NCBI RefSeq assembly: GCF_003439925.1
Contig: NZ_QQRR01000001.1
Coordinates: forward strand, 496,001 to 560,000
From: Haloprofundus halophilus
GTDB lineage: Archaea; Halobacteriota; Halobacteria; Halobacteriales; Haloferacaceae
Direction: 5' to 3'
DNA length: 64,000 bases
Positions 28,562 to 35,189 of the stretch are shown one piece after another. Position 1 is the first letter of the stretch; each line of letters opens with the position of its first letter. The notes below the pieces were generated by a model that was not told where the DNA came from, searched no databases, and saw only the letters and a program-made list of their open reading frames with translations. The translations under genes and the position numbers were made by a program.

Positions 28562-28957
28562 ATGGCGAAAGAGGTACACACCGTTTCCGAGGAAGGGTAC
28601 AGCGCGACCAGTCAGATACGGGAGTTCGAGGTGGATATCGACTCGAATGGCGAGGACGCCCCCGACACGCTCGAGAGCCTGCTCGCGGCGTACGCGTCCT
28701 GCTTCGTCCCGGCACTCCGCGTCGGCGGGCGCCAGCGGGGCGTCGACGACCTCGGGCGCATCGAGATCGACGTGACTGGGGAGTTGAACGACGACGACAA
28801 ACTCGAGTCGGTCGCCTTCGACGTCCGCGTCGAACCGGCGCTCGAAGACGACCAGGGCAAGGAGATCCTCGAGCGCGCCTTCGAGCTCTGTAAGGTCCAC
28901 GACGCGCTCAAGGAGAGCCTCCACGCGGAGACGACCATCGAGGGCGGGTCGGACTAA
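28562..28957 (+). CDS. OsmC family protein, tandem copy 1
   Basis: A 131-residue OsmC/Ohr-fold protein. Both redox cysteines are present: one in LLAAYASCFVPALR and one in AFELCKVHDALKESL. Such proteins reduce organic hydroperoxides through a thiol cycle. The gene is about 50% identical in layout to the next OsmC gene, with the same length and shared SQIREFEVDID/SEVGDFELSID and VGGxQRGxDDLGxxxID segments, so it arose by tandem duplication. A T-rich promoter element is about 30 nt upstream. Confidence 0.84.
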   Translation: MAKEVHTVSEEGYSATSQIREFEVDIDSNGEDAPDTLESLLAAYASCFVPALRVGGRQRGVDDLGRIEIDVTGELNDDDKLESVAFDVRVEPALEDDQGKEILERAFELCKVHDALKESLHAETTIEGGSD

Positions 28958-29169: not shown

Positions 29170-29565
29170 ATGACGGACATCCAGACGACGACAGTCAGCG
29201 AAGAGGGCTACGCGAGCACCAGCGAAGTCGGTGACTTCGAACTCTCCATCGACGCCACCAACGAGCAGGGGCCGGACCCGAACTCGGTTCTCGTCGCGGA
29301 CTACGCGTCGTGTTTCCTCCCCGCGTTCCGCGTCGGCGGCTCCCAGCGCGGCTTCGACGACCTCGGCAAACTCCAGATCGACGCCGAGGCCGACCTCGAC
29401 GGCGACGACGACCTCACGGCGATTCGCTTCGACATCTACGTCGAGGCCGACCTCGGCGACGAGGTCGACGAAGTCGTCTCGCGCGCAGAGGACATCTGCC
29501 ACGTCCACGCGGCGCTCCGCGAGGAACTTCACGCCGACGTCGCGGTCAACGACGGCGCGTTCTGA
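29170..29565 (+). CDS. OsmC family protein, tandem copy 2
   Basis: A 131-residue paralogue of the preceding gene, with both cysteines conserved (VADYASCFLPAFR and AEDICHVHAALREEL). It is not in a tight operon with copy 1: 212 nt separate them and a TATA-like TCTTTAGGA lies 26-34 nt before the ATG, so it is likely transcribed independently. Peroxide detoxification is inferred from the family. Confidence 0.84.
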   Translation: MTDIQTTTVSEEGYASTSEVGDFELSIDATNEQGPDPNSVLVADYASCFLPAFRVGGSQRGFDDLGKLQIDAEADLDGDDDLTAIRFDIYVEADLGDEVDEVVSRAEDICHVHAALREELHADVAVNDGAF

Positions 29566-31446: not shown

Positions 31447-32226
31447 GTGACGAACACGCAGTTGACGCTCATCCAGATAGACAACTACGGACCCTGGACG
31501 GTCACCCCCGAACCGAGACGGGAGATGGACCTCCAGACGCTGCAGTCTCGCCTCTTTGCGGACCTCGCGCAGTTCGTCGGCAGCCGCGACGGCTACGCCT
31601 TCTTCACGCGCTTCGACAACATGGTCGCGGTGACCAACGGCCTCGATCGCGCCGACCACGAGCTCATGCAGGAGTCGATTCGGAACCGCTATCCAGTCAC
31701 CCTGAGCCTCGGCGTCGGCGTCGACGAGGTGCCCGTCGAGGCCCTCGAACGGGCGACCGAGGAGATTCAGCTCGCCGGCAGCGCCCAGGACGGCGACCGC
31801 CGCGAGGTGCTCGGCGGCGAGTTCCGCGCCTCCTCGGGCACCGACGACCTCAACATCGCCCACTTCGACGTCAACGACGCCACCGGCAAGTACACCGACC
31901 GCCTCAACGAGTTCGACTCGTTCATCCACATCGAGCAGGGCTACGCCAGCCTGATGCGCCACATGCGCGAGGCGCACGGCGCGCTCTCCTTCTTCGTCGG
32001 CGGCGACAACATCATCTCCGTCTGCCCCTCGCTGTCGGAGAGCGAGTACCGAAGCGCCATCGAACACGTCGAGTCGGAGGTCGGCGTCGAACTGAAGGTC
32101 GGCGTCGGCGCGGGCGAGAGCGCCCACGTCGCCGGCTTCGCGGCCAAGCACGCGCTCGAAGACTGTCGGCACCGCGGCACCGACGTCGAGTTCGCGGCCG
32201 CACCGGCGCACGTCGGCGACGACTGA
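31447..32226 (+). CDS. arfA: GTP cyclohydrolase III (archaeal)
   Basis: A 259-residue enzyme. It shows the repeated ferredoxin-like halves of GTP cyclohydrolase III: TLIQIDNYGPWTVTPEPRRE at the N-terminus and HFDVNDATGKYTD in the second half, each followed by YAFFTRFDNMVAVTNG or SFFVGGDNIISVC (GGDN motif). The enzyme opens GTP to the formylaminopyrimidine nucleotide that starts archaeal riboflavin and F420 synthesis. The start is GTG 31447. It heads a very compact operon: the next gene starts 2 nt after its stop. Confidence 0.9.
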   Translation: MTNTQLTLIQIDNYGPWTVTPEPRREMDLQTLQSRLFADLAQFVGSRDGYAFFTRFDNMVAVTNGLDRADHELMQESIRNRYPVTLSLGVGVDEVPVEALERATEEIQLAGSAQDGDRREVLGGEFRASSGTDDLNIAHFDVNDATGKYTDRLNEFDSFIHIEQGYASLMRHMREAHGALSFFVGGDNIISVCPSLSESEYRSAIEHVESEVGVELKVGVGAGESAHVAGFAAKHALEDCRHRGTDVEFAAAPAHVGDD

Positions 32227-32228
32227 CC

Positions 32229-33272
32229 ATGCCCGCACGCTCCGTGACGTTCACCGCGCCGCGCGAAGTCCGCGTCACGGAGTCCGAGATTCCGACGCCC
32301 GACCCCGACGAGATGCTCGTCGAGACGACGTACTCGGCTATCAGCCCGGGGACGGAACTGCTCATCTACCGCGGAGACGCCCCCAGAGAGCTGAGAGCCG
32401 ACGAGACCATCGGCGCGCTCGACGGCTCGCTCGACTACCCGCTCCGGTACGGGTACGCGGCCGTCGGTACCGTCGCCGCCGTCGGCGCCGACGTCGACGA
32501 GGCGTGGACGGGCCGGCGCGTGTTCGCGTTTCGTCCCCACGAGAGCCACTTCTGCGCCTCGCCGAGCGAACTCCACGCGGTGCCCGACGACTGCTCGATG
32601 GCGACGGCGTCGCTGCTGCCGAACGTCGAGAGCGCGGTCAACTTCGCGATGGACGGCCGACCGATGGTCGGCGAGCGCGTCGTCGTCTTCGGGCAGGGGC
32701 TGGTCGGTCTGCTGACGACGGCCGTGCTCTCGTCGTTTCCGCTCGACGAACTCGTCACCGTCGACGAGATCGGCGAACGACGGCAGCTATCCAGAGAGTT
32801 CGGCGCCGACGAGAGCATCGCCCCCGAGGAGGTCGGCGAGCGATTCGACCCGTCGGGGCCACTGGACGGCGGTGCGAGCGGACGCGTCGGCGACGGCGCG
32901 GACCTGACGTTCGAGCTGTCGGGGAACCCCGCCGCGCTCGACGCCGCCGTCGGCGCGACGGGGTACGACGGCCGCGTCGTCGTCGGGTCGTGGTACGGGA
33001 CGAAACCGGCGACGCTCGACCTGGGCGGGCGGTTTCACCGCAGTCGCATCCGACTCGAAAACAGCCAGGTGAGCACGCTCGACCCGCCGCTTCGCGGCCG
33101 ATGGGACAACGACCGACGCCTCGACGTCGCGTGGGACTACCTCGCGGAACTCGACGTCGAACGCCTGCTCACACACCGTGTTCCCGTCGGCGACGCCGAA
33201 CGCGCCTACGAGTTGCTCGATTCGAACGCCGAAGCCGCCGTGGGTATCCTCTTTACGTACCGCGACCCGTAA
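32229..33272 (+). CDS. MDR-superfamily dehydrogenase without canonical zinc ligands
   Basis: A 347-residue medium-chain dehydrogenase. It has a GroES-like N-terminal domain (YSAISPGTELLIYRGDAP) and a Rossmann domain with VVFGQGLVGLL (GxGxxG). The structural four-cysteine zinc site is absent and the catalytic Cys/His-Glu pair of alcohol dehydrogenases is replaced. Only one cysteine appears, in ESHFCASPSEL. This resembles BchC-like or threonine-dehydrogenase-like MDR proteins. It sits between arfA and a pterin-synthase-like gene, suggesting a redox step on a nucleotide- or pterin-derived side chain. An upstream open frame of over 400 codons is a GC artefact; ATG 32229 is the start. Confidence 0.78.
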   Translation: MPARSVTFTAPREVRVTESEIPTPDPDEMLVETTYSAISPGTELLIYRGDAPRELRADETIGALDGSLDYPLRYGYAAVGTVAAVGADVDEAWTGRRVFAFRPHESHFCASPSELHAVPDDCSMATASLLPNVESAVNFAMDGRPMVGERVVVFGQGLVGLLTTAVLSSFPLDELVTVDEIGERRQLSREFGADESIAPEEVGERFDPSGPLDGGASGRVGDGADLTFELSGNPAALDAAVGATGYDGRVVVGSWYGTKPATLDLGGRFHRSRIRLENSQVSTLDPPLRGRWDNDRRLDVAWDYLAELDVERLLTHRVPVGDAERAYELLDSNAEAAVGILFTYRDP

Positions 33273-33279
33273 CGAGAGT

Positions 33280-33657
33280 ATGTACTCGGTAACCGTCCGC
33301 CGGTCGTTCATCGCCCAGCACTTCCTGACGGTCCCCGACCCCGGCCCGGAGGGCGAGTTGCACTCGCACCGCTTCGACGTCGAACTCCGGTTCGAGGGTC
33401 CGACGCTGAGCGAGTACGGCTACCTCGTCGACATCGACGACGTGAAGGCGGCGCTGTCGCCGGTCGTCGAGCGGTACCGCGACGCGACGCTGAACGATCT
33501 CCCGGAGTTCGAGGAGGAGAATCCGAGCGTCGAGCGACTCGCGCGGATTCTCTGCGAGGCGGTCGTCGACGAGGCGACGCTCGACGGCCCCGAACGGGTC
33601 CGCGTGACGGCGTGGGAGGACGAGGAGGCAGCGGCGGCGTACGAGACGGCGCTCTGA
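33280..33657 (+). CDS. PTPS/QueD-like protein lacking catalytic Cys, Asp-His
   Basis: A 125-residue tunnelling-fold protein of the 6-pyruvoyl-tetrahydropterin synthase/QueD family. The three zinc histidines are kept: H14 (AQHFL), H28 and H30 (LHSHRF). Aligned by eye with E. coli QueD, the catalytic Cys is Glu24, and the catalytic Asp-His pair is Arg67-Asp68 (ERYRDATLND against ERLDHHYLND). The C-terminal VxVxE glutamate is out of register (VRVTAWE). The flanking LNDLPEF and NPSVERLAR are typical. So it is probably not a standard PTPS or QueD. It is 7 nt after the dehydrogenase and directly abuts the glycosyltransferase. Confidence 0.8.
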   Translation: MYSVTVRRSFIAQHFLTVPDPGPEGELHSHRFDVELRFEGPTLSEYGYLVDIDDVKAALSPVVERYRDATLNDLPEFEEENPSVERLARILCEAVVDEATLDGPERVRVTAWEDEEAAAAYETAL

Positions 33658-34752
33658 ATGCGCGTCGGCCTCCTCGTCTACGGCGACCTCGACGAACGCT
33701 CCGGGGGCTTTCTCTACGACCGCCGGCTCGTCGACCACCTGCGCGAACGCGGCGACGACGTCGTCGTGTTCTCGCTACCCGAGCGCGGATATCTCCCCTC
33801 TCTGGCGGACAACGTCGACACCTCGCTGTCGCGCCGAATCCGCGCTGCCGACCTCGACGTCCTGCTACAGGACGAGCTCTGCCACCCGTCGCTGGCGTGG
33901 TTCAACCGTCGACTCGGCGTCGACGCACCGGTCGTCGCCGTCGTCCACCACCTCCGCGTCGACGAGACGCGCCCGACGTGGCGAAACGCGCTCGTTCGGC
34001 GTCTCGAACGGGCGTATCTCCGGTCGGTCGACGCGTTCGTCTGCAACAGCGAGACGACGCGCCGGGCCGTCTCGACGCTCGTCGGCGACGGCTCGGCCGG
34101 GACTACCGAACCGTCGGTCGTCGCCTACCCGGCGGGCGACCGCTTCGGGACGACGGTCACCGGCGCTCGCGTCCGAGAGCGCGCACGCGACGGCCCGCTT
34201 CGCGTCGTCTGCGTCGGCAACGTCACGAGACGCAAGAACGTGGAGACGCTCCTGGCGGGGTTGGCGCGAGTCCGCCAACGCTGGGAACTCGTCGTCGCCG
34301 GGAGTCTCACCGGAGACCCCGAGTACGTCGAAGAACTCCGCGCCGCCGTCGACCGGGCGGGGCTGGCCGACCGCGTCCGTTTCACCGGCCGACTCGCGGA
34401 CGCGGAACTGGCGGCGCTGTACGAGCGAAGCCACCTGTTCGCGATGCCCTCGACGTACGAGGGGTTCGGCATCGCCTACGTCGAAGCGATGGGGTTCGGA
34501 CTCCCGGTCGTCGCGTCCGCCTCCGGCGGCGCGAGCGAACTCGTCGCCGACAGAACGAACGGCTATCTGGTCGACCCCACCGACCCGACGGAGGTGACGG
34601 ACGCCGTCGCCCCGCTGTGTCGGAACCGCGAACGCCTCGCGCGGATGGGGTTGGCGGCGTTGGCGACGTACGGAGCGCACCCGACGTGGGCAGAGACGGG
34701 CGCGCGCATCGCGGCGTTTCTCGACTCGCTCGTCGGTTCGGATTCGGTCTGA
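33658..34752 (+). CDS. GT4-family glycosyltransferase
   Basis: A 364-residue GT-B retaining glycosyltransferase. Visible are the N-terminal glycine loop DERSGGFLYDRRLVDHL, the DVLLQDELCHPSLAW region, VGNVTRRKNVETLLAGLARV in the C-terminal domain and the family signature EGFGIAYVEAMGFGLPVVAS with the E-x7-E pair. It uses a nucleotide sugar, with unknown acceptor. Its ATG follows the PTPS-like stop without a gap, so it is the last gene of the arfA operon. That makes a small-molecule acceptor linked to the pterin/pyrimidine genes plausible, though lipid or protein acceptors remain possible. Confidence 0.85.
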   Translation: MRVGLLVYGDLDERSGGFLYDRRLVDHLRERGDDVVVFSLPERGYLPSLADNVDTSLSRRIRAADLDVLLQDELCHPSLAWFNRRLGVDAPVVAVVHHLRVDETRPTWRNALVRRLERAYLRSVDAFVCNSETTRRAVSTLVGDGSAGTTEPSVVAYPAGDRFGTTVTGARVRERARDGPLRVVCVGNVTRRKNVETLLAGLARVRQRWELVVAGSLTGDPEYVEELRAAVDRAGLADRVRFTGRLADAELAALYERSHLFAMPSTYEGFGIAYVEAMGFGLPVVASASGGASELVADRTNGYLVDPTDPTEVTDAVAPLCRNRERLARMGLAALATYGAHPTWAETGARIAAFLDSLVGSDSV

Positions 34753-34860: not shown

Positions 34861-34975
34861 CGAGCGGCGGCGGAGAACGGCGGCGGAGAGCAGTAGTCAG
34901 GCGAGCGGCGGCGGCGAAGAACGACGGCGGAGAGCAGTAGTCCGCGAGCGGTGGCGGCGGAGAGCGGCGGTCGGG
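34861..34975. repeat. Purine-rich minisatellite-like direct repeats
   Basis: Three imperfect units begin CGAGCGGYGG at 34861, 34902 and 34945, about 41-43 nt apart. The first two also share GGAGAGCAGTAGTC (34885-34898 and 34929-34942). The stretch is G/A-rich on the plus strand, runs almost to the small zinc-finger gene and contains no supported gene. Confidence 0.55.
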
Positions 34976-34979
34976 CGTG

Positions 34980-35189
34980 CTACTTCCGCTCGCGGTGGCG
35001 GCGTTGCGCGTCGGTGCCCGAGACGAGTTCGAGTTCCGGGACCTGCTCGTGGACGGCGAGCGGACCGTGTACCTCGCGGACGTGCTGTCGGAGGTTCGGG
35101 ACGCCCACGGCGACGAACTGTTCGTCACAGCCGTCGACCGGGCACGGTCCGGTGTACCTGTACGGTTCGCCTCTGGGTCGGTCGCTCAT
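34980..35189 (-). CDS. Small C2H2-type zinc-finger protein
   Basis: A 69-residue protein with one C2H2 finger: C-x4-C in CPVDGCDEQF, then H-x4-H in LRQHVREVHG. Such small haloarchaeal finger proteins often bind DNA or regulate, but there is no direct evidence here. The start is ATG 35189 on the minus strand. Its C-terminus is basic (RRHRERK). The GT4 gene is on the other strand; the repeat tract lies beyond its stop. Confidence 0.6.
   Translation of the reverse strand: MSDRPRGEPYRYTGPCPVDGCDEQFVAVGVPNLRQHVREVHGPLAVHEQVPELELVSGTDAQRRHRERK

Follow-up and report, generated by a model that had tools for sequence, protein, structure and literature searches.

Members of the PTPS family are grouped by their active-site motifs, with CxxxHGH in PTPS-I, CxxxxxHGH in PTPS-II, and ExxHGH in PTPS-III (motifs as given in a section of PMC5041015). 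PTPS-IV, in which the catalytic residues are changed, has FGPAQ as its signature, and PF00925 and PF01872 neighbors have been published for it (PMC5445326). In cyanobacteria, pterin glycosides are made with a GTP cyclohydrolase, a PTPS, and a glycosyltransferase (PMC3546692, in part; the PTPS part also in PMC5041015). One of these compounds is cyanopterin, a 6-hydroxymethylpterin with an O-methylated sugar chain, pteridine glycosyltransferases being used for their synthesis, and solfapterin, an archaeal neopterin glycoside, is named among the references of the same source (PMC3546692). Here a window of 64,000 nucleotides, the whole stretch of DNA that was analyzed, was found to encode a PTPS-fold protein of 125 amino acids on the forward strand (33280..33657). 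The protein is a variant with a zinc site and an acid pair that stands beside the published PTPS-IV, and the parts of the pathway around it can be named. The preliminary description of this reading frame had missed the operon, a second, true QueD in the genome, and the published PTPS-IV.

The PTPS-like protein and its active-site residues

The reading frame is real and encodes a PTPS/QueD homolog, as had been proposed, with a score of 94.2 bits against PF01242 (cut-off 22.4). The NCBIfam scores lie below their cut-offs, with 48 bits for the QueD equivalog TIGR03367 (cut-off 89.25) and 33.5 bits for the broader PTPS/QueD subfamily (cut-off 125.5). The AlphaFold model has a mean pLDDT of 95.4 and a pTM of 0.86, and its comparison with the 17 best PTPS/QueD structures resulted in VIA Z values of 14.7–18.6, in agreement with membership of the PTPS superfamily (T-fold). 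The top solved match is SCO6650 (PDB ID 3d7j), with a Z value of 18.6, 1.5 Å over 125 residues, and 31% identity; E. coli QueD (PDB ID 4ntk) gave a Z value of 16.4, and a Foldseek search of the model returned the same family.

Residue equivalences to QueD were taken from the alignment with the E. coli structures 4ntk and 3qn0, and the search for relatives started either from the window protein or from a profile built on them (A1), a recruitment that could bias the set. A scan of genome contigs resulted in 37 relatives, comprising 31 from haloarchaea, 3 from Rhodothermia (two Salinivenus and one MAG), 2 from Chloroflexota, and 1 from Legionella, and extra loci were added by whole-genome searches. 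Among the 108 matching haloarchaeal genomes, those read besides the contig-scan loci were G000 and four low scorers. The main alignment contains 57 non-duplicate rows of the group, including the window protein and leaving out same-place duplicates (L040, L070–L073, L075–L077, and L084), together with 9 PTPS-IV and 25 QueD-like rows. Group labels were assigned from locus and score gap, independent of Glu24.

The position of the catalytic Cys of QueD is occupied by Glu24 (codon 33349..33351; all codons are on the forward strand), and the position of the Asp-His pair by Arg67-Asp68 (33478..33483), as the preliminary description had assigned them. Position 24 is Glu in 57/57 rows of the group, Cys in 25/25 QueD-like rows, and Ala in 9/9 PTPS-IV rows. 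Position 68 is always acidic in the 57 relatives (49 Asp, 8 Glu) and is His in 24/25 QueD-like rows, and position 67 is variable (Arg in 33, Ala in 14, Lys in 6, and others). The same changes recur throughout the orthologs, with neither the Cys nor the Asp-His pair of QueD retained in any of the 57, and no other invariant Cys or His column was found in a 19-row alignment. His14 (33319..33321), the first His of the zinc site, is invariant in the 57 rows, as are Ser29, His30, Asn72, Asn81, Ser83, and Glu85. The remaining zinc-site motif is comprised of His28-Ser29-His30 (33361..33369) and reads HSH as opposed to HGH. The window protein has His14, His28, and His30, as the preliminary description had stated. 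Across the group, position 28 is His in 44/57 and Asn in 13/57 rows, so that not every member has the third zinc ligand and the metal is perhaps dispensable in part of the group. The metal site may be changing inside the group. The exchange of His28 for Asn is seen in L029, L033, L034, and most Chloroflexota loci, where Glu24 and His30 stay fixed. In a divergent haloarchaeal subgroup (L106–L109; E about 1e-35) the loop ahead of HSH is altered, with the Glu four residues before HSH kept.

Glu113 (33616..33618) had been described as out of register. It is in fact in register in 56/57 rows of the group, 9/9 PTPS-IV rows, and 25/25 QueD-like rows, and aligns with the Glu that anchors the pterin ring in the PTPS family. 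The changes at Glu24 and Arg67-Asp68 are neither chance nor decay. In the alignment an invariant Glu and a second, always acidic residue occupy the two positions that are catalytic in QueD, with the pterin-binding positions intact, and the alignment together with the fold match predicts that Glu24 and Asp68 are positioned in the active site.

Position within the PTPS family

The motif of the window protein, E24xxxHSH, matches none of those of PTPS-I, -II, -III, or -IV. Where PTPS-I has CxxxHGH and Asp-His, the window protein has E24xxxHSH and Arg67-Asp68; the CxxxxxHGH motif of PTPS-II does not occur in the protein; ExxHGH of PTPS-III does not fit, position 25 never being Glu (Gly in 29, Asn in 23, Ala in 4, and Ser in 1 of the 57 rows) and position 29 being Ser in 57/57; and FGPAQ of PTPS-IV is absent, with Glu24 in 57/57 rows where PTPS-IV carries Ala. 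A maximum-likelihood tree was calculated from 91 rows and 125 columns, which are few columns for the number of rows, and in it one branch unites the 57 rows of the new group (100/99) and the 9 PTPS-IV rows fall together (100/98). The two groups are adjacent relative to QueD (97/68), where long branches meet, so that this join is tentative; PTPS-IV (FGPAQ; SCO6650, PDB ID 3D7J) is likely, on these alignments, to be the sister clade of the new group. The window protein aligns with PTPS-IV and SCO6650 free of gaps over residues 1–32, with His14, Gly22-Pro23, and His28 in common. In contrast to the His30 and acid pair of the window group, which lacks FGPAQ, PTPS-IV has Ala24, Ala30, and no acid at position 68 (9/9 rows).

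The likeness to QueD/PTPS-I (PDB ID 4NTK and 3QN0) comprises the T-fold, the zinc-site His residues, the pterin-anchoring Glu, and the NPSxE motif, whereas the window protein lacks the catalytic Cys and Asp-His and is encoded away from queuosine genes, with the genome's own QueD located separately. This separate protein carries CxxxHGH and is followed by a radical-SAM reading frame with CxxxCxxC, which by eye reads as QueE. In one Salinivenus genome three PTPS proteins are encoded, with CxxxHGH, CxxxxxHGH, and ExxxHSH. A literature search found no function for the E24/D68 subgroup. PTPS-V and PTPS-VI are reportedly defined by Phillips 2012 (COG0720), and our guess is that the group could already be named there or in the work on SCO6650, PTPS-V being a candidate.

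Gene partners and co-occurrence with the SGTE dehydrogenase

In the window the PTPS-like gene belongs to a run of four genes on the forward strand, separated by gaps of 2, 7, and 0 nt. The run begins with GTP cyclohydrolase III (ArfA; 31447..32226; 284 bits for PF05165 and 402.6 bits for NF002587; GTG start set by relatives), which yields a formylaminopyrimidine nucleotide. It continues with an MDR dehydrogenase of 347 amino acids carrying an SGTE motif (32229..33272; PF00107 and PF08240) and, after the PTPS-like gene, ends with a GT4-type glycosyltransferase of 364 amino acids (33658..34752; PF00534, 128 bits), whose start codon comes right after the PTPS stop. No RibD_C gene was found near the PTPS-like gene of the window, and the single RibD_C of the genome lies elsewhere. 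Downstream of the glycosyltransferase gene and antisense to it is a reading frame of 69 amino acids (34983–35189, reverse strand; MSDRPRGEPYRYTGPCPVDGCDEQF...HVREVHG) that resembles a small C2H2 zinc finger (C-x4-C...H-x4-H), and between the two lies a G-rich 44-bp tandem repeat of 2.5 copies (34864–34970). A tandem pair of similar 131-amino acid reading frames (28562–28957 and 29170–29565) has an OsmC-type look by eye.

Neighbor profiles, with family names from Pfam, were run on 58 loci covering 6 kb either way of the PTPS-like gene. The 32 main haloarchaeal loci contain the dehydrogenase in 30, GTP cyclohydrolase III in 22, a glycosyltransferase in 19, and a methyltransferase, a CDP-alcohol transferase, and DUF7475 in 12 each, the absences here and in the other groups being soft because several loci have short flanks. 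In Haloferax, GTP cyclohydrolase III precedes the cassette at each of the 9 contig-scan loci whose sequence extends that far. In the divergent haloarchaeal loci the dehydrogenase, glycosyltransferase, methyltransferase, CDP-alcohol transferase, and DUF7475 are each present in 4/4. The three Rhodothermia loci all have the dehydrogenase, GTP cyclohydrolase II, RibD_C, and a methyltransferase, with a glycosyltransferase and a CDP-alcohol transferase in one each. Among eight Chloroflexota loci the dehydrogenase and a glycosyltransferase are each found in seven, GTP cyclohydrolase II, RibD_C, and a methyltransferase in three each, and a CDP-alcohol transferase in one. One of the two Legionella loci has the dehydrogenase, glycosyltransferase, GTP cyclohydrolase II, and RibD_C, and the other has none of them; this second, more diverged copy belongs to Legionella wadsworthii (L099, G203:C7) and has no partner genes in 18 kb. 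At L036, too, no partner genes were found within its 12 kb. The partners of the PTPS-like gene differ from the sets for queuosine, biopterin, and folate synthesis.

The partners shared with PTPS-IV are the dehydrogenase, glycosyltransferase, RibD_C, GTP cyclohydrolase II, and CDP-alcohol transferase, and the neighborhood of PTPS-IV type (GTP cyclohydrolase II with RibD_C) is present in the bacterial members L030–L032, L035, L037, and L101. In nine PTPS-IV loci from Pseudomonadota the dehydrogenase, glycosyltransferase, and RibD_C are found in all nine, the CDP-alcohol transferase in eight, an LPG-synthase-type membrane protein in seven, a creatininase in six, GTP cyclohydrolase II in four, and a methyltransferase in one. 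The nearby creatininase-like, LPG-synthase-type, and CDP-alcohol transferase genes (L090–L098) hint that the PTPS-IV product is perhaps membrane-linked or exported. The idea of a FAPy-releasing GTP cyclohydrolase II gained no support, as the cluster copies beside the creatininase-like gene keep the Tyr that we take to be Tyr105 of the E. coli enzyme.

Across 195 Halobacteriales genomes the PTPS-like protein is found in 108 (87 of the 157 good ones) and the dehydrogenase in 104. Both are present in 104 genomes, the PTPS-like protein alone in 4, the dehydrogenase alone in 0, and neither in 87, in counts that ignore kinship. With one match taken per genome, 88/104 pairs lie within 2 kb, and the pairing is not purely a matter of linkage because 16/104 do not, some of these 16 being on different draft contigs. 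The closest kin of the dehydrogenase in the PDB are RspB and the sorbitol, butanediol, and xylitol dehydrogenases. MDR enzymes of the sorbitol, butanediol, and xylitol type usually have Cys and His-Glu zinc ligands. In the alignment of the SGTE dehydrogenase these ligands were not seen, and Ser36, Gly41, and Glu43 of the SGTE region are invariant.

Proposed pathway and alternative explanations

The demonstrated part of our explanation comprises the fold, the conserved residues, the partner genes, and their co-occurrence, and beyond these we infer a substrate, an order of steps, a reaction, and a product. Judged from its conserved residues, the role of the PTPS-like protein is most likely catalysis upon a pterin-type substrate. 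We see an even chance that the members of this PTPS subgroup are active enzymes with a catalytic acid pair and that the protein performs one step in a dedicated pathway to a glycosylated pterin. A GTP cyclohydrolase (III in haloarchaea and II in bacteria) and a RibD reductase lacking the deaminase (ArfC in the haloarchaeon) would provide 2,5-diamino-6-ribitylamino-4-pyrimidinone phosphate. The SGTE dehydrogenase would oxidize a side-chain hydroxyl, proposed to be the ribityl 2'-OH, and the 2'-ketone would then close on the 5-amino group to give what is formally dihydroneopterin phosphate, a ring closure that we deduce from structure and known chemistry. In the PTPS-like enzyme the metal-site His residues would orient the pterin-type substrate and Glu113 would hold it, and Glu24 and Asp/Glu68 would take over the proton transfers that are performed by Cys and Asp-His in QueD. 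The pterin side chain would thereby be rearranged or cleaved, most likely by an acid-base retro-aldol reaction or tautomerization, and the product would be decorated by GT4, and in many relatives by the methyltransferase as well, to give the glycosylated pterin. The earlier suggestion that a protein with the metal kept and with new acids may catalyze a different reaction is supported by the fixed acids in archaea and bacteria, the separate clade, and the other gene partners.

In the bacterial RibD_C proteins of L031, L037, and L095, RibD_C either stands alone or is joined to GTP cyclohydrolase II, and no deaminase domain was found; as the cluster RibD reductase would work without deamination, the 2-amino (pterin-type) ring is probably kept. 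At least two RibD_C matches are present in 12/14 bacterial genomes, and the genomes with a single match (G680 and G760) have none near the PTPS-like gene, so that the cluster copy looks dedicated. The glycosyltransferase, and the methyltransferase where present, suggest a conjugated pterin. PTPS-IV has these partners and yet lacks Glu24, His30, and Asp68, so that the partners alone are no proof of a catalytic role for the acid pair. Counting against the pathway are the glycosyltransferase lying beyond 6 kb in 13/32 main haloarchaeal loci, L036 with its lack of partners, and the window genome with no second RibD_C near the gene. GTP cyclohydrolase I (PF01227) was not found in the window's genome and FolE2/MptA is present, which gives the genome another way to dihydroneopterin, so a second route needs a reason.

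The cyanobacterial route, with GTP cyclohydrolase I, PTPS-II, sepiapterin reductase, and BGluT/PgtA, likewise combines a cyclohydrolase, a PTPS, an oxidoreductase, and a glycosyltransferase. In contrast, sets of the window type pair a RibD-type reductase with cyclohydrolase II or III, and their dehydrogenase is of the MDR and not the SDR type, to which sepiapterin reductase belongs. Phosphohalopterin is a haloarchaeal compound, and a literature search with this term found no paper carrying it. A wider proposal, which we put forward tentatively and consider somewhat doubtful, is a pterin route independent of GTP cyclohydrolase I that would run through riboflavin-type intermediates (ArfA/ArfB or RibA, RibD reductase, SGTE dehydrogenase, acid-pair PTPS, and glycosylation) and would be common to haloarchaea and distant bacteria, with PTPS-IV in a sister pathway.

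The operon shared with GTP cyclohydrolase III could also mean that the protein completes the usual archaeal route to riboflavin or F420, supplying for instance the phosphatase or the deaminase that this route lacks. Deletion of HVO_1284 (arfA) leads to riboflavin auxotrophy and a gap remains in the haloarchaeal riboflavin pathway (PMC8305020), and PTPS-IV is said to act in F420 synthesis in a remark on unpublished work (PMC5041015). We nevertheless consider this role unlikely: a glycosyltransferase and a methyltransferase would be out of place in a missing flavin step, and bacteria with a long-frame RibD elsewhere carry the set anyway. Moreover, riboflavin is needed by all, and a function in its synthesis is disfavored by the 87/195 Halobacteriales genomes that have no PTPS-like protein.

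The loss of all canonical catalytic residues, the zinc His missing in 13/57 rows, and SCO6650, the nearest solved structure, which reportedly lacks both zinc and the catalytic triad, would suit a protein with no catalytic activity, a binder or carrier passing a pterin or pyrimidine intermediate from the dehydrogenase to the glycosyltransferase. This carrier role, already raised in the preliminary description, is improbable because Asn81, Ser83, Glu85, Glu113, and both acids are conserved and the dehydrogenase co-occurs almost always; a carrier would have no need for two fixed acids exactly at the lost catalytic positions.

We think it quite improbable that the protein is a folate enzyme like PTPS-III, which would convert dihydroneopterin phosphate to 6-hydroxymethyldihydropterin by a Glu-based retro-aldol reaction for folate or methanopterin. 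A Glu does replace the Cys, as in the Plasmodium enzymes (PDB ID 1Y13 and 2A0S), where the titles of 3LZE and 3M0N name E37A/E37C as a "catalytic residue mutant". However, the Glu of PTPS-III lies three residues before HGH (ExxHGH, in the section of PMC5041015 on motifs), whereas that of the window group is one residue farther away, four before HSH, position 25 is Gly, Asn, Ala, or Ser in 57/57 rows, and the conserved neighbors are non-folate genes. A degenerate or diverged QueD still active in archaeosine synthesis is rejected as highly improbable, for although the nearest Pfam and NCBIfam names are PTPS/QueD, the 48 bits fall short of the QueD cut-off of 89.25, the acids are fixed, the group is a separate clade in the tree, the genome's own CxxxHGH protein adjoins the CxxxCxxC radical-SAM reading frame, and the Salinivenus genome encodes all three of the CxxxHGH, CxxxxxHGH, and ExxxHSH proteins.

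PTPS-family proteins are a textbook example of misannotated paralogs, and PTPS-IV, with similar partners, has been published before its function was worked out. What the new group contributes is a variant in which the zinc site is accompanied by two fixed acids, together with a defined set of partners, among them a dehydrogenase that is never found without the PTPS in 195 genomes. The proposed pathway is testable in Haloferax, for which genetics are available, and its study could uncover a pterin conjugate not described before and perhaps another way of making pterins from GTP.
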